Below the pieces are notes generated by a model. It was not told the DNA's origin and did no database searches. It saw only the letters and a program-made list of their open reading frames with translations. 64,000 bases of DNA from Pseudomonas sp. S04 (lineage in GTDB: Bacteria > Pseudomonadota > Gammaproteobacteria > Pseudomonadales > Pseudomonadaceae), in assembly GCF_009834545.1 (NCBI RefSeq), contig NZ_CP019427.1, forward strand, positions 1,899,001 to 1,963,000, given 5' to 3'. A program made the position numbers and the translations under genes. This document shows positions 1 to 51,826 of this stretch, piece after piece; within the stretch, counting starts at the first letter, position 1; each line of letters begins with the position of its first letter.

Positions 1-1227
1 TTGTTCGAACAGGGGCTGCAACGTTACCTCGAAGCGGGCCTGCGCAACGACAGTGAAAACCTGCTGGTGGCCCTGGTGCGCGGCCCGCAAGGCGTGCAAC
101 TGGACGAGCGCCGCCTGTCGCCGGCTTATCAGCGGCCGTTCTCCGGGCATTATTTTCGCATCGACTTTGCCGACACCCACTGGCGTTCGCGTTCGTTGTG
201 GGACCAGGAACTGCCGTTGCTCGAGCAGCCGGGCCTGCACAGCAACCTGCAATTAGGGCCTGAGGGTCAACAGCTGCTGGTGTTGCGTTCGGACTACCGG
301 CGCCTGGGCCAGTCGATCTCCATCAGCGTGGCCCAGGACTACACCCCGGTGCAGGAGAGCTTCCGGCGCATGCGTCAGATCGGCCTCGGCCTCGGCCTGG
401 CCTGCCTGCTGCTGATTCTGCTGTTGCAGCGGATCACCGTGCGCCGCGCCCTGCGCCCGCTGGAAAGCGCGCGGGAGCAGATCGCCCAATTGCAACAGGG
501 GCAACGCTCGCAACTGGACGCCCAGGTCCCCGAAGAACTGGAACCCCTGGTGGCGCAGATCAACCATCTGCTGGCGCACACCGAAGACAGCCTCAAGCGC
601 TCGCGCAATGCCCTGGGCAACCTCGGCCATGCGCTGAAGACCCCGTTGGCGGTGTTGCTGAGCCTGGCTTCCAGCGACAAGCTGGATGCCCATCCCGAGC
701 TGCGTAAAGTCCTGCAAACGCAACTGGAGCAGGTGCAGCAGCGCTTGAACCGTGAACTGAACCGTGCGCGACTGGCCGGTGACGCCTTGCCCGGCGCGTT
801 GTTTGATTGCGATGCCGAGCTGCCGGGGTTACTGGCTACCTTGAACATGATTCACGGCGAACACCTGGACCTCAGTTACGTCGCGCCGGCCGGTCTGCAC
901 CTGCCGTGGGATCGCGAGGACTTGCTGGAATTGCTCGGCAACTTGCTGGACAACGCCTGCAAATGGGCCGACGCCGAGGTGCGCCTGAGCGTGGCGCAGG
1001 CGCCCGAGGGCTTTGTGCTGGCGGTCGAAGACGATGGCCCGGGGATTCCCGAAGCCCAGCGCGACCAGGTATTCAGCCGGGGTACACGCCTGGATGAACA
1101 GACCAACGGGCATGGCCTGGGCTTGGGCATCGTGCGCGATATCGTCGAGGCGTGGGGCGGGATATTGCGCTTGGAAGAAAGCCAGTGGGGCGGATTGCGG
1201 GTAGTGATCGAGTTACCCAGGATCTGA
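1..1227 (+). CDS. Sensor histidine kinase, 5' end cut by window edge
   Basis: Two-component sensor kinase of the PhoQ/QseC type. The visible 408 residues hold the end of a periplasmic sensor region, a membrane helix at about 127-143, a HAMP-like linker, the phospho-acceptor His in GHALKTPLA (about residue 210), the N box NLLDNACKW (about 314-322), and the G boxes DDGPGI and GHGLGLGIV. It should phosphorylate a response regulator, probably encoded upstream outside the window. The frame is open to the first base, and a first membrane helix is missing, so the true start lies upstream. It converges with the chemoreceptor gene. Confidence 0.9.
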   Translation: MFEQGLQRYLEAGLRNDSENLLVALVRGPQGVQLDERRLSPAYQRPFSGHYFRIDFADTHWRSRSLWDQELPLLEQPGLHSNLQLGPEGQQLLVLRSDYRRLGQSISISVAQDYTPVQESFRRMRQIGLGLGLACLLLILLLQRITVRRALRPLESAREQIAQLQQGQRSQLDAQVPEELEPLVAQINHLLAHTEDSLKRSRNALGNLGHALKTPLAVLLSLASSDKLDAHPELRKVLQTQLEQVQQRLNRELNRARLAGDALPGALFDCDAELPGLLATLNMIHGEHLDLSYVAPAGLHLPWDREDLLELLGNLLDNACKWADAEVRLSVAQAPEGFVLAVEDDGPGIPEAQRDQVFSRGTRLDEQTNGHGLGLGIVRDIVEAWGGILRLEESQWGGLRVVIELPRI

Positions 1228-1238
1228 TAGCCGATCAG

Positions 1239-1270
1239 GCCAGTGGGGCGTGTCTGCTCGCCCCACTGGC
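1239..1270. terminator. Inverted repeat between convergent genes
   Basis: GCCAGTGGGGCG and CGCCCCACTGGC form a perfect 12-bp stem with an 8-nt loop between the kinase stop and the chemoreceptor stop. There is no T tract, so termination is inferred from position and stem strength only. Confidence 0.5.
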
Positions 1271-1276
1271 GCTGGA

Positions 1277-3421
1277 TTACACCCGGAACTGATCCATCAG
1301 GCTCTGCTGCTGGTTTGCCAGAGTGTTGAGCGACTGGCTGACCCGGGCCGATTCATTGGCCTGGCCCGACAGCGACTCGGTCACGTCGCGGATGGTTGCC
1401 ACGTTGTTATTGATCTCTTCGGCCACCGCGCTCTGTTCTTCGGCGGCACTGGCAATCTGCAGGTTCATGTCGGTAATCACCGTCACCGCGTCGCCGATCT
1501 GGCGCAGTGCGGTCACGGCCTGGCCAACCTGCTCGACGCTGCCCTGGGCCTGGCGGTGGCTGTTGCCCATGGCGCCGACCACTTGCTGGGTGCCACTTTG
1601 CAGTTGCTCGATCACCTGGCGGGTTTCCTCCACCGACTCTTGCGTGCGGCGGGCGAGGTTGCGCACCTCGTCGGCCACCACCGCAAAACCGCGCCCGGCT
1701 TCCCCGGCGCGCGCGGCCTCAATGGCGGCGTTGAGCGCCAGCAGGTTGGTCTGCTCGGCGATGGCGCGAATCACTTCCAGCACCGAACCGATTTTCTCGC
1801 TGTTGGCCGCCAGGCCTTCGACCTGGACCATGGCCGTGCTCATGTCGGCGGCCAGGCTGTCGATGCTGGCGGTGGTGCGGTCGATCACGGTCAGGCCCTG
1901 GCGGGTTGCCTGGTCCGCGTCGCGCGCCGCTTGTGCCGCCTGCGCTGCACTGCGGGCGACGTCCTGGGCGGTGGCGCTCATTTCGTGGGAGGCGGTGGCC
2001 ACCTGATCGACCTGGCGATACTGCTGCTCCATCCCGGCGCTGGTCTGGGTGGCGATGGCCGAGGACTGGTCGGCGGTGCTGCGGGCGTCCTGCACCGAAC
2101 GTTTGACCTCGGCGATGATCGGTTGCAGCTTGTCGAGGAAGCGGTTGAACCAACCGGCCAGTTGCCCGAGTTCGTCCTGCTTGTCGTAGGCCAGGCGCCG
2201 GGTCAAGTCGCCTTCGCCGCTGGCGATGTCTTCGAGCATCTGGGCCACGCCGAGAATCGGCCGGGTCACGCTGCGGGCCATCAGCCAGACCAGCAGCAGG
2301 CCGATGACCGCGGCTATCAGGCCCAGGCCCAACTCGATCAGGGTGCCGGTGGTGTTGGTGGCGTCGAGTTCGGCCTGCAGGGCTTGCGCCGGGCCGACCA
2401 CGACCTGTTGCGGCACGTCGAGCAACACCCCCCAGGCCTTGCCGCCGGGAATCGGTTCGAACGGCGAGAGCACCTTGAGTTGCTGCTGGCTACGCAGGCT
2501 CTGGGTCTGGTTACTGGTGCCCAGCATGCGCAGCAGTTCGCTGCCGTCCTGGTCCACCGTGCCCAGGCGCTGGCTGAGTTTGCTGGCGTCCGGGCTGTAG
2601 CCGGCGAGCAGGCCGACGGGGCTGAGGATGCTGACGCTCGTCTGGCCGTCGTAGAGTTCGCGGCTCGCCTGCTGGCTGACGGCCTGCAGGCTGTTGAGGT
2701 TGATGTCCACTGACAGCGAGGCGATGACTTTGCCATCCGCCAGCAAGGGGAAGACGATGCTGGTCATCAGCACGTTCTGGCCATCGATCACATAGAAGTA
2801 GGGTTCGATCACGCAGGGCTTGAGGGTTGCGCGCGGGCAAGTGAACCAGGCATTGGCCGGTTCGCCGCTGGGGCCGGTGCTGGTGTCGGCCATGTCGCTT
2901 TCGGGCAGCGCCATCGAGTTCAACTTGCCGGCGGTCGGCTGCGACCAGTACAGGGCAAAGCGGCCCTTGTCGTTGCTGCCCAGTTCTTCCTGGCCGGCAA
3001 ACAACTCGTCCTTGCCATCCAGGGCGTTGGCTTCGAATACCAGCGACAGTCCGAGTAGTTGCGGGTTGGCCTGCAGCGCCGACTTGACCTGGCGGGTCAG
3101 GTCTTCGCGCAGGTCGAAGGCGTCGAGGAAACGTTTCTCGGCCTGTTCGCGCAGGAACAGCACCTGGCGCGAGAAGCCATGGCCATATTGATAGGCGTCC
3201 ATGAACTGCTGGCGAATCCCCAGCGCCTGGACTTCGCCCTGGGCTTCGATGCGCGACTGGGCCGCTTCATTGAGCATGCTCATGCTCGACGCCTTGACCA
3301 GTTCGGAACTGTGCTCCATGCGATACAGCGACAGGCCCACCAGCAAGGTCACGATGCCGGCCAGGCACAGCCCGGCCAGCAGGGTGATTTTCCATTGAAT
3401 CGACAGCTGTCTGAGTGACAT
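1277..3421 (-). CDS. Methyl-accepting chemotaxis protein with dCACHE-type sensor
   Basis: Transmembrane chemoreceptor of 714 residues. A first membrane helix (about 12-33) is followed by a large periplasmic region (about 40-355) with double-CACHE features such as [15 protein letters not shown] and an internal VSILSPVG segment. A second helix (about 361-381), a HAMP domain (about 382-432) and a cytoplasmic signalling hairpin with tip motif [19 protein letters not shown] follow. It would signal to the CheA/CheW array; the ligand cannot be read, but dCACHE receptors often bind amino acids or other small metabolites. The MSLRQLS start is chosen because it directly precedes the first membrane helix; a longer upstream reading adds 63 residues unlike the family. 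Confidence 0.93.
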
Positions 3422-3654
3422 GGAGGCGCCCTTAATCGATAAATATCCAAGACCTGGACCTGTAACGGCCTCATCAGCGCTTTCTTGAGTCCTGTACCAA
3501 CTGCCGCGTAGTTTTTGACAAGCGCGGCGGGCTGCGGCACAGTGCGCGCCCTCTAATAAAACCTCTATTCCATCCGGTGTCGGCCCTTGCAGCTGGCAGG
3601 CCGGACTCATCCCGTTTGCGCCGCGTTCGGCGGCGACTGTGCCTTGAGGTAACG

Positions 3655-4974
3655 ATGATTAATGCAGTAATTGCCGCGGTCGGCATCATGCTGGTACTCA
3701 GCCTGTCCCGCGTGCATGTGGTGATCGCGCTGATCATTGGCGCTCTGGTGGGTGGCCTGACCGGCGGCCTGGGTATGCAAGCGACGCTCAAGGCCTTCAA
3801 CAGTGGCTTGGGCGGCGGCGCGACCGTGGCGTTGTCCTACGCCTTGCTCGGCGCCTTTGCGGTGGCGATTGCCAAGTCTGGCCTGGCCCATGCCCTGGCA
3901 GACAAGGCCCTGGCCCTGGTGGATCGGCAGGACGCCAATGGCGGCGGCCAGGTCAAGTGGTTACTGATCGGTTTGCTCTGGGTGGTGGCGATCGCCTCGC
4001 AGAACATCCTGCCGATTCACATTGCCTTTATCCCGCTGCTGGTGCCACCGCTGCTGTATGTGCTGACCAAGTTGCAACTGGATCGCCGCTTGATCGCCTG
4101 CGTCATGACCTTCGGCTTGATCACGCCGTACATGTTCCTGCCGGTGGGGTTCGGCAATATCTTCCTTAATGAGATTCTGCTGGCCAACGTGGCCAAGAGC
4201 GGCGTCGACATCAGTGGCGTCAACGTCACCCACGCCATGGGTATTCCGGCGTTGGGCATGGTGTTCGGGTTGTTGCTGGCGTTTGTCAGCTACCGCAAGA
4301 AACGCGTGTATGACCTGGAGAAAATCGAGCGGGTCGAGCAGGTGGCAGTCCAGTACAACCCGCTGACCTTGATGGTGGCAGGGCTGGCGATTGCCGCCGC
4401 CTTCATCATCCAGTTGCTGCTGGATTCGATGATTATCGGCGCTTTGGCCGGGTTCCTGATTTTCTCGGTATCGGGGGTGGTGCGCTGGCGCGAGACCGAC
4501 GATCTGTTCACCGAAGGCATGAAGATGATGGCGATGATTGGTTTCATCATGATCGCCGCCTCTGGGTTCGCCGAGGTCATGAAGGCCACCGGCGAGGTGC
4601 AGACCCTGGTTGAGACGTCGGCGGCGTGGATCGGCCACAGCAAGGGCGTCGGTGCGTTGCTGATGCTGCTGGTCGGGCTGCTGGTGACCATGGGCATCGG
4701 CTCGTCCTTTTCCACGGTGCCGATCCTGGCGGCGATCTTCGTGCCGCTGTGCGTGCAACTGGGCTTCAGTCCGTTGGCCATCGTCTGCATCGTCGGCACT
4801 GCCGGCGCCTTGGGTGACGCCGGTTCACCAGCCTCGGACTCGACCCTGGGCCCAACCTCGGGCCTGAACATCGACGGCCAGCATCACCATATCTGGGACA
4901 CCGTGGTCCCGACGTTCCTGCACTACAACCTGCCGTTGCTGGCGTTTGGTTGGGTGGCGGCGATGGTGTTGTAA
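3655..4974 (+). CDS. Na+/H+ antiporter-family (YuiF/NhaC-like) permease
   Basis: A 439-residue inner-membrane transporter made almost entirely of hydrophobic helices, starting [17 protein letters not shown]. The repeated Gly-rich segments and the C-terminal [19 protein letters not shown] stretch are typical of the NhaC/YuiF branch of the ion transporter superfamily, some members of which move amino acids. The ATG start follows TTGAGGTAAC, a good Shine-Dalgarno; an upstream in-frame extension is arginine-rich and unlike a membrane start. It is divergent from the chemoreceptor gene. The substrate cannot be assigned. Confidence 0.85.
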
Positions 4975-5001
4975 CCCGGCAGTCAAGCTTGTTGCAGGGG
5001 C

Positions 5002-47324: not shown

Positions 47325-48638
47325 TCACAGACTTTCCAATTGCTCCACGACTTCGTTGAACCCGGGCCGTGCCAGCACTTGGGGCTGACAGCACTGGCGC
47401 TGCAACCTCTCCAGTACCTCGCGTCGTGCGGCACTCAGGCCGGAGTCGATCCGCGCCAGTAACTCCCCCAGCAGAATCCCGAAGGCGCGCACTTCGATGC
47501 GTTGCAGTGCGCGGGTTTCCAGGGTCTCGGCGCGGGCATGGAAGGACGCTGCGCCGAAGTCCCCCAGCAGGCAGTCGCCCTGATCGTTATACAAAGTGTT
47601 GTGGCCATACAAATCGCCGTGGGTGATGCCCTGTCGATGCAGGTGCGCAGCGGCCGAGGCGATGCCACGGGCGATGTTCAATGCCACTTCGGCGCTAAAG
47701 CGCGTGTCGGGCTCATACACGTCGCGGCTGCAGGAATCCAGGCTGGGCAAGGCGGCCAGGTTGCGATAACTGCGGTCGATCAGCCCCATCACCAGGCCGG
47801 ACTGTTGCTGTGGATGGTCGACGATGCGCCCCAGCACGCTGATCAGCTGCGGATGAGTGCCGGCGCTGAGGCAGGCGTTCATCTCATGCAGGGGCGAACC
47901 GTCGCTGGTTATCGAGCCTTTGTAGAGTTTCACCGCGACCTCGCGCTCCGGCAGTGATGGCGGCTGCCACCGTGCCTGATGAATCACCCCCGAAGCGCCT
48001 TCGCCCAGGCGCTGCTGCAGCTGCAATTGCGCCCAGGGGATGTGTGCGGTGGCGGCCAGCGCGCTGGCATCGGCCTCGGTTTCCAGCGGGTTGCCGGCAT
48101 ACGCCAGCCAGGCCAGGGACGGCAAAGTCAGCAACCACTGGGGCAGTTCGCTGAGTTGGTTTTCGGCAATGCGGATCAATTCCAGCCGATGGCACTGGCC
48201 CAGGCTGGCGGGCAGGCTGCGCAGCCGGTTGCCGGCGAGCATGAGTTTTTGCAGCAGGGGGCGTTGCCCCAGTTCGCTGGGCAATTGCTCCAGTTCATTG
48301 TCGGTCAGGATCAACCAGCGCAACTGTGGCGGCAGGGCCGTGGCCGGGACCCGCTGCAGGCGATTGCTCTTGCAGCCGATCATGCTCAGTTGCTGGCATT
48401 GACCCAGGCTGGCCGGCAGTTCGCGCAAGAGATTGTTCGAGCAGAACAGCACCCGCAAGTGGCGCAGTCGGTGCAGGTCGTCCGGCAATTGGCGCAAGGC
48501 GTTGCCGCTGAGGTTGAGCACCTCGAGCGAGTCCGCCAGGCTGTAAATTTCCTCGGGAAACTCCTCCAGGCCGCACGACAGGTCCAGTCGTTTGATCCCG
48601 GCCAACTCGCCGGATCGCAGTTGTGCAAGGGTATGCAT
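47325..48638 (-). CDS. Leucine-rich-repeat / Ser-Thr protein kinase fusion
   Basis: A 437-residue cytoplasmic protein. Residues about 15-185 contain some seven LRR units (LEVLNLSGNALRQLPDDL, LQKLMLAGNRLRSLPASL). Residues about 205-437 are a eukaryotic-type kinase with Gly loop GEGASG (212-217), ATP Lys237 (VAVKLYKG), catalytic HGDLYGHN (His340, Asp342, Asn347) and DFG (360-362). All key residues are present, so it is likely active. No signal or membrane segment. The ATG at 48638 is used; a GTG six bases upstream is possible. Confidence 0.88.
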   Translation of the reverse strand: MHTLAQLRSGELAGIKRLDLSCGLEEFPEEIYSLADSLEVLNLSGNALRQLPDDLHRLRHLRVLFCSNNLLRELPASLGQCQQLSMIGCKSNRLQRVPATALPPQLRWLILTDNELEQLPSELGQRPLLQKLMLAGNRLRSLPASLGQCHRLELIRIAENQLSELPQWLLTLPSLAWLAYAGNPLETEADASALAATAHIPWAQLQLQQRLGEGASGVIHQARWQPPSLPEREVAVKLYKGSITSDGSPLHEMNACLSAGTHPQLISVLGRIVDHPQQQSGLVMGLIDRSYRNLAALPSLDSCSRDVYEPDTRFSAEVALNIARGIASAAAHLHRQGITHGDLYGHNTLYNDQGDCLLGDFGAASFHARAETLETRALQRIEVRAFGILLGELLARIDSGLSAARREVLERLQRQCCQPQVLARPGFNEVVEQLESL

Positions 48639-48721
48639 GAACACATCCAGTCAATGGAAGAGAGGGCGGCGTCGAGCCTGCAAACGTTGGAATGATAACG
48701 GTAAACGTCCGGGTCTGGCGG

Positions 48722-49474
48722 CTAGAACTTCAGCGTTTGCTGGATGACCTGGGTAGCCGGGTCGCGGGCTTCGCTGACCATCGCATAGTTGTAGCCGGCC
48801 CCTGACCAGTATTGCGCCTGCAATTCTCCGTCGCTGCGACTGCCTTTGGGGAGCAGGTAGTTCCGCGGGCCGGGCGGGCGGATGTAGAAGCTGATCTTGC
48901 GCCCGCCTTGGTCTTCATACATCACCATGGCCGCCGGGCCCTGGTCGGTGCTCAGCAATCGTGCACTGACCGGCTGGAAACCCGCGTTGGCGAGGTCCGG
49001 CAGGCGGTTGGCGCGGGCAAAATAATGATCGAGCCAGCCCTGCATGTCGCCATCATCGCTGACCCGATAGTCGGCCGGCAGCAGGCCTTGCTGGGCGAAC
49101 ATCCGATACGCCTGCATCGCGTCAGTCATCGGCAGGGTGCCACCGCTGAGCGTCATTTGCCGTGCTTGCCAGCCACCCAGGCCGCCGACACTGACTGCGA
49201 TCAGCAGCAGGGCGGCACTGGCCAGGTGGCGCCGGGACTGGCGCTTGCGGCGTTGGCGAATCAGCCCCGGGTCGAGGTCGGGGTTGTCCGGTTGTTGCAA
49301 GGCGCCGCCCAGGGCTGCCCGCAGTTGCTGGGCGTCCTGCTGCCAGGCGCGTACCTGCCCGGCCATCTGCGGATTGGCCGCCAGGTACGTCTCCACCAGG
49401 CGCCGGTCGGCATCGTTGAGCTGATGGTCGACGTAGGCGTGCAGGTCATTGACGCTGGGCGGCATGCTGATCAT
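48722..49474 (-). CDS. Anti-sigma factor (transmembrane)
   Basis: A 250-residue single-pass membrane protein: N-terminal cytoplasmic anti-sigma-like domain (PPSVNDLHAYVDHQLNDADRRLVETYLAANP), a basic stretch then a membrane helix (about 83-103), and a periplasmic domain. Its ATG overlaps the sigma gene stop (ATGA), so the two are translationally coupled, the standard arrangement for an ECF sigma and its regulator. It should hold the sigma factor inactive until a periplasmic or envelope signal arrives. Confidence 0.86.
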   Translation of the reverse strand: MISMPPSVNDLHAYVDHQLNDADRRLVETYLAANPQMAGQVRAWQQDAQQLRAALGGALQQPDNPDLDPGLIRQRRKRQSRRHLASAALLLIAVSVGGLGGWQARQMTLSGGTLPMTDAMQAYRMFAQQGLLPADYRVSDDGDMQGWLDHYFARANRLPDLANAGFQPVSARLLSTDQGPAAMVMYEDQGGRKISFYIRPPGPRNYLLPKGSRSDGELQAQYWSGAGYNYAMVSEARDPATQVIQQTLKF

Positions 49475-49977
49475 TTGAGTCTCCGCAGGGAAGGGCTACT
49501 GATTTCACCGTCGCTGAGCTGACGCAAAGCCTGGCGCGCCCGGGACAGACGAGACATTACGGTGCCGGTCGGGACGTCGAGGATCTCGGCGACCTCTTTA
49601 TAACTCAAGCCCTCCACCGCAACCCAGAGCAACAGCGCCCGCTGCTCGGTGGGTAACCGGTCGAAGGCTTCCAGGGTGTTCTGCGCAATCACCGTGCGCT
49701 CCAGCGAAGGCTGCGGCTCGTCGCGACCGGTGAAAAACTCAAGCATCCGCGCATAACGCCGGGAGCGGCGATGGGCGTCGAGAAACTGCCGGTACAGAAT
49801 CGCAAACAGCCAGGCCCGCAGATCGCCCTCCGGGTGTTTGCTGCCCCAACTCGACAGCGCGCGCTCCAGGCACGACTGCACCAGATCGTCGGCGCTGCTG
49901 GAATTGCGGGTCAGCGAGACCGCAAAGCGGCGCAGCCTGGGGATCAGTTCACGTAACTGTTCGTCGAGAGGGTTCAT
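49471..49977 (-). CDS. ECF RNA polymerase sigma factor
   Basis: A 168-residue ECF sigma factor with region 2 (RRFAVSLTRNSSSADDLVQSCLERALSSW, DLRAWLFAILYRQFLDAHRR) and region 4 (RLPTEQRALLLWVAVEGLSYKEVAEILDVPTGTVMSRLSRAR). Divergent from the catalase-like/b561 operon. A GGAAT-N16-CGTCT promoter sits just upstream on its own strand and an identical one faces the catalase operon, which implies autoregulation and control of that operon. Start could also be a GTG 18 bases upstream. Confidence 0.93.
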   Translation of the reverse strand: MNPLDEQLRELIPRLRRFAVSLTRNSSSADDLVQSCLERALSSWGSKHPEGDLRAWLFAILYRQFLDAHRRSRRYARMLEFFTGRDEPQPSLERTVIAQNTLEAFDRLPTEQRALLLWVAVEGLSYKEVAEILDVPTGTVMSRLSRARQALRQLSDGEISSPSLRRLK

Positions 49978-50012
49978 GGTGGGCGGGCCAGTCACTACGC
50001 TTGGGACTAGAG

Positions 50013-50038
50013 AGACGCTTGGCAGTGGAGGTTATTCC
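50013..50038 (-). promoter_or_regulatory. ECF-type promoter of the sigma/anti-sigma operon
   Basis: Minus-strand GGAAT (50038-50034), 16 bases, CGTCT (50017-50013), about 35 bases before the sigma start codon. The -35 context GGAATAACC matches the promoter at 50067 almost exactly. Confidence 0.75.
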
Positions 50039-50066
50039 CGTGGCGCAGAAATAAACACCGGGCCAT

Positions 50067-50092
50067 GGAATAAACGTCGAAGGGCAACGTCT
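50067..50092 (+). promoter_or_regulatory. ECF-type promoter of the catalase-like/b561 operon
   Basis: GGAAT (50067-50071), 16 bases, CGTCT (50088-50092), about 44 bases before the ATG of the catalase-like gene. -35 context GGAATAAAC. Confidence 0.77.
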
Positions 50093-50135
50093 GCCTGATC
50101 CTTGCCACACGCCGTTCCCGGCCCTGGAGTGTTAC

Positions 50136-51221
50136 ATGGTAGATCGTTCCCCCCCCCCCGACAGGCTTCCTTTAAGTCCCGTCAGCCTGGCCCTGCGCCT
50201 GGCAGCGATTGGCCTGGTGGTTGGCGCCATGGCCGTGGCCTTTGCCTACGTCAACGGTTCTCTCGACCCACAGCGCTTGACTCCCAAGGCACTGGTCAAC
50301 GTGCTTGAAACCAACAATGGCGTTCACCCAGGGTTTCGCCGCAACCACGCCAAGGGGGTGTGCGTGATCGGCTATTTCGAGAGCAGCAACGAGGTGCGTG
50401 CCTATTCCACCGCGCAGGTGTTCAACGCTGCACGAACCCCGGTGGTCGGGCGGTTTGCCTTGCCCAGCGGCAATCCTTACGCACCGGATACCAGCGTGCC
50501 GATCCGTAGCCTGGCGCTGCGCTTCACTCAGGCCGATGGGCAACAATGGCGCACGGGCATGAACAGCATGCCGGTGTTCCCGGTGGGTACACCCCAGGCG
50601 TTTTATCAGTTACAGCAGGCGCAGAGCCCGGATCCTGCAACGGGCAAACCGGACCCAGCGGCCGCCCCGGCATTTTTTGCCGCGCACCCGGAAACCGCGC
50701 CGTTCCTGCGCTGGATCAAGAGCGCCAAACCCTCGGCCAGCTACGCCACCGAGACCTATAACGGCATCAATGCGTTTTATCTGGTGAATCCGGCGGGTCA
50801 ACGCCAGGCCGTGCGTTGGGGGGTCGTTCCGCAGGCCCGGGACGGCGCAACCACCAGCGCCGCACAAGGCGCTGATGTTCTCGAACAGGACTTGCGCGAG
50901 CGCCTGCAGGCCGGGCCGTTGCGCTGGCAGTTGCTGATCACCCTGGCCGATCCGACGGACCCCACTGACGATGCCAGTCAAGCCTGGCCGGCTGAACGCA
51001 AGGTACTGAACGCCGGGACGCTGGTGCTGCAAAGCAGCCAGGCGCAAAACAGTGGCGAGTGCCGGGATATCAACTACGACCCGCTGATCCTGCCCAGTGG
51101 CATCGAGCCCTCGAAAGATCCGTTGCTGGCCGCGCGCTCGGCCGCCTACGCGAGCTCCTATCTGCGCCGGACGAGCGAAGTCGGTCAGTTGCCTGACGCT
51201 AAACAGGAGGCCGCCCAATGA
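50136..51221 (+). CDS. Catalase-family peroxidase (SrpA-like), membrane anchored
   Basis: A 361-residue haem protein of the small-subunit catalase family. An N-terminal signal anchor (about 15-40) should place it in the periplasm. The distal His is in NGVHPGFRRNHAKGVCVIGYFE and the proximal haem-ligand Tyr in RSAAYASSYLRR. Codons 5-8 lie in a run of 11 C bases (50149-50159) giving Ser-Pro-Pro-Pro. It overlaps the following cytochrome b561 gene (ATGA), so the pair is an operon; b561 could supply electrons. Expected role: peroxide detoxification at the envelope. Confidence 0.87.
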   Translation: MVDRSPPPDRLPLSPVSLALRLAAIGLVVGAMAVAFAYVNGSLDPQRLTPKALVNVLETNNGVHPGFRRNHAKGVCVIGYFESSNEVRAYSTAQVFNAARTPVVGRFALPSGNPYAPDTSVPIRSLALRFTQADGQQWRTGMNSMPVFPVGTPQAFYQLQQAQSPDPATGKPDPAAAPAFFAAHPETAPFLRWIKSAKPSASYATETYNGINAFYLVNPAGQRQAVRWGVVPQARDGATTSAAQGADVLEQDLRERLQAGPLRWQLLITLADPTDPTDDASQAWPAERKVLNAGTLVLQSSQAQNSGECRDINYDPLILPSGIEPSKDPLLAARSAAYASSYLRRTSEVGQLPDAKQEAAQ

Positions 51222-51760
51222 GCGCGCAACCGAACCACTTCGCGCCCCTGGCGCGGCTGCTGCACTGGCTGATGGCGTTGCTGGTGATCGCCATGCTGTT
51301 CATTGGCGCCGGCATGGTCGCCTCGGTGTCCGAGCGCCATGAATGGCTGATCCACCTGCACAAGCCGTTGGGCGTGGCGATCCTGTTGCTGGTGATCGTG
51401 CGCCTGTTCGTGCGCTTCTCGACGCGTCAACCGCCCTTGCCGGCGGACCTGCCCGATTGGCAGGTGCTCGCGGCCAAGGCGTCCCATGGGCTGCTGTATG
51501 CCCTGATGCTGACCTTGCCAGTGCTCGGCTGGGCGATGATTTCGGCAGCGGGTGATCCGGTCACGCTGGGCATTGGCGTGCAATTGCCAGCAATCGTGCC
51601 GGCCAATGCCGCGCTGTTCGCCTTCCTGCGCAGGGCCCATGGGTACCTGGCCTACCTGCTGTTCCTCACGGTATTGCTGCACCTGGCCGCAGCGCTGTTC
51701 CATGGCTGGATCCGGCGTGACGGCGTATTGCAGAGCATGCTGTCCGGCAAGGATCACTGA
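51218..51760 (+). CDS. Cytochrome b561, partner of the catalase-like protein
   Basis: A 180-residue four-helix cytochrome b561 with His ligands in LARLLHWLMALLVIAMLF, LIHLHKPLGVAIL, KASHGLLYALML and AHGYLAYLLFLTVLLHLAAALFHG. Translationally coupled to the catalase-like gene. Likely passes quinol electrons to the periplasmic side for that enzyme; this coupling is inferred from gene order. Confidence 0.92.
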   Translation: MSAQPNHFAPLARLLHWLMALLVIAMLFIGAGMVASVSERHEWLIHLHKPLGVAILLLVIVRLFVRFSTRQPPLPADLPDWQVLAAKASHGLLYALMLTLPVLGWAMISAAGDPVTLGIGVQLPAIVPANAALFAFLRRAHGYLAYLLFLTVLLHLAAALFHGWIRRDGVLQSMLSGKDH

Positions 51761-51826
51761 TCGGGCAGGGCGCTGCTGGCGAGGCCTGAGGGCCGCATGC
51801 GCTGTGGCATGCGGCCCGTTGAGCGA

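Follow-up and report, generated by a model that had tools for sequence, protein, structure and literature searches.

A 64,000-nucleotide stretch of DNA from Pseudomonas sp. S04 (NZ_CP019427.1, 1,899,001-1,963,000; GCF_009834545.1), hereafter called the window, contains two divergent gene pairs that probably constitute an autoregulated two-operon regulon of an extracytoplasmic function (ECF) sigma factor for periplasmic oxidant defence. One pair encodes the sigma factor and its anti-sigma factor, and the other encodes a catalase-related heme peroxidase and a cytochrome b561. The role in oxidant defence is suggested by the latter two genes. A preliminary description of the locus had proposed that the sigma factor controls both its own operon and the divergent operon. 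This proposal is supported by the footprint of the promoter motif across loci, by the presence of the peroxidase in 62 of the 64 genomes that contain the sigma factor and by the match of the promoters to those of the ECF26 group. It is also supported by the host genome, which contains no other site for the long form of the motif, and the system is self-contained, as that description had it, as far as this motif shows. The features are as follows, with coordinates referring to the window.

48722-49474, minus strand: gene for the anti-sigma factor, 250 amino acids (open reading frame, ORF)
49471-49977, minus strand: gene for the ECF sigma factor, 168 amino acids from the likely start ATG 49977 (ORF and profile matches)
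50013-50017, minus strand: predicted -10 element CGTCT of the sigma/anti-sigma promoter (read directly and conserved)
50034-50038, minus strand: predicted -35 element GGAAT (extended GGAATAACC) of the sigma/anti-sigma promoter (read directly and conserved)
50049-50055, no strand assigned: AAATAAA box midway between the two -35 elements, resembling an upstream (UP) element and perhaps shared (from conservation)
50067-50071, plus strand: predicted -35 element GGAAT (extended GGAATAAAC) of the catalase/b561 promoter (read directly and conserved)
50088-50092, plus strand: predicted -10 element CGTCT of the catalase/b561 promoter (read directly and conserved)
50126-50129, plus strand: GGAG, likely ribosome-binding site of the catalase-like gene (read directly; leader conserved)
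50136-51221, plus strand: gene for the catalase-related heme peroxidase, 361 amino acids (PF00199, E 9e-31)
51218-51760, plus strand: gene for cytochrome b561, 180 amino acids (PF01292, E 1e-31)

The two gene pairs diverge from a gap of roughly 140 bp between the sigma factor and peroxidase genes. The sigma and anti-sigma genes overlap by 4 bases, as do the peroxidase and b561 genes, and therefore each pair is probably one transcription unit. The module had initially been given the span 49471-51760, outside which the anti-sigma gene falls. The ORF of the sigma factor opens at GTG 49995, upstream of ATG 49977, which is the more likely start, judging from the first residues conserved in relatives.

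Promoter pair in the window and in Pseudomonas

The sequence GGAAT-N16-CGTCT is located at 50038-50013 on the minus strand and at 50067-50092 on the plus strand, and both the coordinates and the spacing given in the preliminary description are correct. The extended -35 sequences had been said to agree. They share GGAATAA, but differ at the eighth base. The short form GGAAT-N16-CGTCT is found twice in the window, compared with a mean of 0.12 in 100 dinucleotide shuffles, one of which reaches two. A search of the whole genome, proposed earlier as a check, gives 5 sites for the short form and 4 for the reversed-pattern control, indicating that the short form alone is weak evidence. The long form, GGAATAA-N14-CGTCT, is present in the 6.1-Mb genome only at these two sites, and its control is not found. 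When the spacer of the long form is made one base shorter or longer, no site is added in the whole genome and one control match appears. When one mismatch is allowed, 7 sites including these two are detected versus 10 for the control, and there is no excess. Seven other genome sites were retrieved, and each lies under a mechanical ORF of at least 100 amino acids, although such cover is weak evidence of a gene in a G+C-rich genome and downstream starts were checked on the plus strand only. One of the seven, the one-mismatch site GGCATAA-N14-CGTCT (1501-1526 of locus L149), is followed on the same strand by an ORF start 113 bases downstream, and is a weak candidate for a further target.

For the comparison of loci, the peroxidase protein was used as the query for named Pseudomonas loci, and the best 80 of 427 were fetched. 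All four genes are matched in divergent orientation at 78 of them. L055, a 3.1-kb contig, has no anti-sigma match, and L042 has neither a sigma nor an anti-sigma match. Of the 80 loci, 75 have the strict motif at both places and 3 have it just on the catalase side; one has it just on the sigma side, and one lacks it at both. When the loci are scanned over their entire length, 155 matches are located at the two expected places, including a site of L053 that extends past the estimated gene start, and none elsewhere in 1,729,086 strand bases. The -35 and -10 elements are invariant in the strict set, and most of the spacer varies. The comparison across loci is decisive, indicating that the paired predicted promoters are not due to chance. 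The loci are mostly from close relatives, and 80 loci are not 80 independent tests. A better test is provided by a divergent group of seven loci (L116-L122), in which the sigma factor shows approximately 60% identity and both promoters are present.

When 20 loci from more divergent or oddly laid-out genomes of the genus were added and the looser motif GGAATA-N14-16-CGTC was used, both promoters are found in 97 of the 100 loci, with 2 background matches in 2,054,278 strand bases. The other three are L128 and L134, which have no catalase match, and L042, which has no sigma factor in the available DNA and in which the catalase-side -35 is GGGATTA. The starts of the two -35 elements in the 97 loci are separated by 28 bases in 73 loci, 7-9 bases in 7, 26-103 bases in 9 and approximately 3-4 kb in 8. 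Each promoter remains with its own gene in all eight wide-gap loci. This retention despite variable spacing suggests that each promoter is used and not merely carried along.

The wide-gap loci are L041, L062, L075, L093, L102, L110, L129 and L130. In L041, the region between the promoters (1127-4878) encodes an AMP-binding enzyme, a 490-amino-acid ORF and an enoyl-CoA hydratase. The 490-amino-acid ORF has no Pfam match and resembles a membrane protein by eye. Part of L129 (G004:C1:71318-71830) is a sigma factor relative with one internal TGA, in front of which the promoter motif is kept.

The sigma factor (E <=1e-30) is detected in 64 of 144 genomes and the cognate peroxidase (E <=1e-100) in 62, all of which are among the 64. 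In these 62 genomes the two genes are on one contig, are always divergent and are 102 to 4169 bases apart. The two sigma genomes without the cognate peroxidase are G063 and G085. A strict long-form search of 84 genomes gives 57 matches in genomes of the genus, 53 at the locus and 4 elsewhere. The reversed control gives 10 in genomes of the genus, as read from the result table.

The AAATAAA box was absent from the preliminary description. The strict motif and the 28-base spacing are combined in 72 aligned sequences, of which 70, counting the window, are distinct. The box is invariant in all 70 and lies 10-11 bases from each -35. Across the 80 bases of the promoter stretch, full invariance over 5 or more consecutive bases is limited to the two -35 elements, the two -10 elements and AAATAAA. 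In the divergent Pseudomonas group (18 catalase-side and 20 sigma-side sites), the region 10-20 bases upstream of GGAAT is 76-82% A+T, a richness that is due in part to the -35 of the opposite promoter. Outside the genus, 5 catalase-side sites show an A/T box (72-84%), which is not clear at 4 sigma-side sites (45-65%). The position of the box probably fits that of an UP element for the alpha subunit of RNA polymerase. The 50-base peroxidase leader is well conserved and may contain a further site. In close relatives, the conservation at 50093-50135 extends beyond the ribosome-binding site and reaches 90% or more at many positions.

Proteins encoded at the locus

The sigma factor is ECF26-like, with membership of the group not proven. 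Its predicted promoters, GGAAT and CGTC(T), are as in the published promoters of this group: the ECF26 promoters of Starkeya and Sinorhizobium meliloti have GGAAT at -35 and CGTC at -10 in the passages available of the reports (PMC6527743, PMC6180224). Its anti-sigma factor, encoded downstream, has an N-terminal domain, a transmembrane segment and a periplasmic C-terminal domain, as do ECF26 partners. In a tree whose ECF26-type and ECF15-like reference labels were given from gene context, the sigma factor is placed in a clade of 31 rows (100/100) together with three ECF26-type rows and an ECF15-like row, and the inner order is unclear. This clade is apart from nine other sigma factors of the same genome. 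The ECF26 members RpoE1 and RpoE4 answer to sulfite, according to the passages available (PMC3511301). SMc01022, an S. meliloti cytochrome b-like gene of the YceJ family, rises with RpoE1 and RpoE3, and its listed promoter contains CGTCT, with GCGAATA replacing GGAATA (PMC6527743, PMC6180224).

It is very unlikely that the sigma factor belongs instead to the EcfG (ECF15) general-stress type, although PhyR_sigma2 is its best-scoring Pfam model and its separation from the ECF15-like row in the tree is not clean. EcfG systems use a soluble NepR-type anti-sigma factor together with PhyR, whereas this sigma factor is encoded with a membrane anti-sigma factor that has a transmembrane segment and a periplasmic domain. 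A weak NepR match is found in 1 of 39 relatives; PhyR was not searched for. Comparison by blastp favours the three ECF26-type references (105-112 bits) over the ECF15-like row (90 bits). The promoter also differs, GGAAT/CGTCT as opposed to GGAAC/CGTT at the RpoE2 targets given in the passages available (PMC6527743, PMC6180224).

According to hydropathy and a structural model, the anti-sigma factor consists of an N-terminal anti-sigma domain, a single transmembrane segment (about 84-102) and a periplasmic domain (about 117-249). The N-terminal domain is helical and of the ChrR/RseA type, as in class I anti-sigma domains, and the match to NCBIfam antisigma is weak and below the cut-off. Zinc-binding anti-sigma factors bind zinc through HxxxCxxC. 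Assignment of the protein to this type is rejected, because it contains no cysteine. The likeness of the modelled periplasmic domain to the C-terminal domain of RseB/MucB is one of fold only, and a sequence profile comparison with that domain (PF17188) detects no significant relation. RseA is a membrane anti-sigma factor, and the likeness to the RseA/RseB (MucA/MucB) pair of sigma-E/AlgU consists of a membrane anti-sigma factor and this modelled fold. In the window, however, this domain would be within the anti-sigma chain itself.

The peroxidase is predicted to be an active catalase-related (SrpA-like) enzyme, because it has the catalase domain and the heme-site residues. Among 107 aligned proteins, all have H71, R334 and Y338, and 106 have N143. 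We take these residues to be the catalase heme site, with a distal His and Asn and a proximal Arg and Tyr. A hydrophobic segment at the N-terminus (18-36), above threshold in 105 of the 107 proteins, probably anchors the protein, and together with the conserved heme site it agrees with the earlier suggestion of a membrane-anchored peroxidase. The closest solved relative is 3e4w (residues 48-347, E 9e-40), presumably the catalase-related protein from Mycobacterium avium, from which the window protein differs in having the N-terminal anchor and a b561 partner gene. The cytochrome b561 is of the CybB type, judging from PF01292 and its conserved histidines: H16 and H48 are present in 106 of 106 relatives, and H141 and H155 in 105. 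These are presumably the two pairs of heme histidines. Its hydropathy profile exceeds the threshold in five windows, two of which are near each other, and does not show four clean transmembrane segments. The only solved relative found is 5oc0, which we take to be E. coli CybB, described as a superoxide oxidase.

Occurrence in other genera and variant loci

Outside Pseudomonas, the module is patchy. Thirteen plasmid loci of other genera were chosen from two protein searches. Seven of them contain both sigma factor and catalase, and in six of these the unit's first gene has the motif in front of it. In Pantoea (L136, L139, L145), the genes for the peroxidase, b561, sigma factor and anti-sigma factor are in one row and such a promoter precedes the peroxidase gene, with CGTTT at -10 in L136. 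The two Gluconobacter loci (L137, L144) are divergent and have both promoters, and L137 has no b561 gene and lies beside an IS5 transposase. In Methylobacterium (L142), sigma, anti-sigma, peroxidase and b561 genes run in one direction and the promoter precedes the sigma gene. Variovorax L147 has the enzymes and no sigma factor. In the class sample, 13 other genomes with the sigma factor and 14 other genomes with the peroxidase at E 1e-30 do not overlap.

Catalase-related genes are located near another, distantly related ECF sigma factor and its anti-sigma factor in L205, L206 and L148. More than one ECF system may therefore have acquired genes of this peroxidase family. At L134 of Pseudomonas (4600-5000), the catalase gene has been lost naturally and a short b561 remnant is left, and the sigma and anti-sigma genes with their promoter are kept. 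A SnoaL/NTF2-like gene is located beside the same kind of sigma factor at L128 (4973-5389) and L140 (3521-3943), and is perhaps an alternative payload.

Mechanism, alternatives and related systems

In the proposed mechanism, the membrane anti-sigma factor would hold the sigma factor at the inner membrane, and a periplasmic oxidant, or damage caused by it, would inactivate the anti-sigma factor. The freed sigma factor would then bind GGAATAA and CGTCT on both sides of the gap and raise its own operon and the peroxidase-b561 operon, a step strongly supported by the comparison across loci. The central A/T box probably aids binding of the polymerase. The gene pairing and the conserved heme sites suggest that the anchored catalase-related protein reduces periplasmic peroxide with electrons of the quinol pool delivered via b561.

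Several results weigh against this regulon. Caballeronia L148, which has a more distant sigma factor and a catalase, has neither promoter by the pattern used. Among the five plasmid loci with the sigma factor and no catalase, the motif is in front in L140 and L146 only, and is not found in front by that pattern in L138, L141 and L143. Distant relatives of the sigma factor in other genera (41-49% identity) have a motif-like upstream site in 3 of 14 cases. In a set of 16 catalase-related loci from other genera, in which some stretches stop at a contig end and the class-sample match G311 is left out, this sigma factor is never beside the catalase-related gene; one of the 16 has a weak 28% sigma match. 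Within Pseudomonas, a SnoaL-like gene replaces the catalase gene in L128, behind a weaker site (GGAATA..CGTA), and L134 has the sigma factor and no catalase. A search of the region for a sigma-70-type promoter finds none, which says little, since 0.3 is expected by chance. Finally, with regard to peroxide as the possible signal, an adjacent catalase/sigma pair of Burkholderia cenocepacia showed a late rise following H2O2 treatment, for which the authors propose an indirect trigger in the passages available (PMC2830190).

The alternatives concern the role of b561, the extent of the regulon and the identity of the regulator. The regulon may be as described, and b561 may act as a superoxide oxidase that passes electrons from superoxide to quinone, with the two enzymes removing superoxide and peroxide in succession. 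This assignment is possible, but on the unlikely side. It agrees with 5oc0 as the sole solved relative and with the conserved histidines of b561; the peroxidase/b561 pair is, however, kept in Pseudomonas, Pantoea, Gluconobacter L144 and Methylobacterium, which a donor/acceptor pair fits at least as well. The absence of b561 in Gluconobacter L137, beside the IS5 transposase, is to be set alongside this kept pairing. That the sigma factor drives further genes through weaker sites, and that the system is not self-contained, is unlikely. The ECF26 sigma factors of S. meliloti use sites departing from GGAAT/CGTCT, and overproduction of RpoE6 raises 40 genes, as stated in the passages available (PMC6527743, PMC6180224). 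The L149 site with its downstream ORF start points in the same direction. The one-mismatch and spacer-variant searches, however, show no excess over the control, and strict long-form sites in the genus cluster at the locus, with only the 4 elsewhere.

It is most improbable that the motifs serve another sigma factor, or that OxyR or another regulator mainly controls the catalase operon, with the sigma factor being incidental. Catalases are often controlled by OxyR, 30 region-4 matches in the host genome exceed the Pfam cut-off, and the conserved leader might hold the site of such a regulator. The invariant runs of the promoter stretch are nevertheless confined to the -35 and -10 elements and the AAATAAA box, the long motif is nowhere else in the genome, and all 62 genomes with the cognate catalase have this sigma factor. 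The two-operon regulon described above is preferred. A more elaborate form of it is rather doubtful. In this form, the system would be a one-piece counterpart of RseA/RseB, in which an RseB-like domain within the anti-sigma factor itself would detect an envelope ligand or an oxidised component and would need neither cysteine nor zinc to do so. The peroxidase would be quinol-fed and periplasmic, the promoter would be bidirectional with an A/T box serving both directions, and this promoter would travel between divergent and single-operon layouts across Proteobacteria.

ECF26 systems (RpoE1, RpoE4 and RpoE6 of S. meliloti; SigE of Starkeya novella) resemble the present one in having GGAAT at -35 and CGTC(T) at -10 and in encoding the sigma factor followed by an anti-sigma factor with an N-terminal domain, one transmembrane segment and a periplasmic domain. 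In the passages available, several members are also autoregulated and have few neighbouring targets. The payloads given there are sulfite oxidase, pseudoazurin, a serine protease and a lipoprotein, whereas here they are a catalase-related peroxidase and b561, and the cytochrome b-like gene is elsewhere in the genome, whereas here b561 is within the module. Autoregulation, as proposed here, is not shared by RpoE3 and Starkeya SigE, neither of which activates its own promoter according to the same passages (PMC6527743, PMC6180224).

BcrS/AbcS of Brucella (ECF16) is similar in that an ECF pair adjoins and activates a periplasmic oxidant-repair operon, bcrXQP; it is autoregulated and induced by HOCl. 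It belongs to another ECF group, its promoter is TGTAAC/GCGAAT, and its payload is a Met-rich peptide and an MsrPQ-like pair instead of a peroxidase and b561. These points are those of the passages available of the report (PMC8315932). BCAL3477-BCAL3478 of B. cenocepacia is likened to the present pair by the gene names, 'putative catalase' and 'putative sigma factor', by adjacency and by a joint rise upon H2O2 exposure. The two genes are 23- and 17-fold up by qPCR 60 min after H2O2 and do not change significantly with NaOCl, and neither promoter nor sigma dependence is reported in the passages available (PMC2830190).

A catalase-related peroxidase/b561 payload under such a sigma factor was not found described in the literature searched. 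Thus, the soil Pseudomonas module is a known kind of stress switch with a payload not found described. It proposes a regulator for the catalase-related peroxidase/b561 pair and would extend ECF26-type promoters from sulfite oxidation to peroxide defence. As a minimal two-promoter ECF regulon in common Pseudomonas, it would allow specificity, sensing by the anti-sigma factor and periplasmic peroxide reduction to be tested in one locus. If the RseB-like domain is real, a membrane anti-sigma factor could sense the envelope without a separate sensor protein.

Downstream of the b561 operon, a standard terminator search of the locus finds none, and one further feature is present:

51790-51817, no strand assigned: hairpin with a perfect 11-bp stem and no T tract (z -3.2)

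This hairpin is located between the b561 operon and a convergent M14 carboxypeptidase gene. On the other side, next to the anti-sigma gene, 47325-48644 encodes a protein that combines leucine-rich repeats with a kinase domain. Among named relatives, the nearest one found is Pseudomonas kielensis (L036), whose four proteins are 95-97% identical to those of the window.

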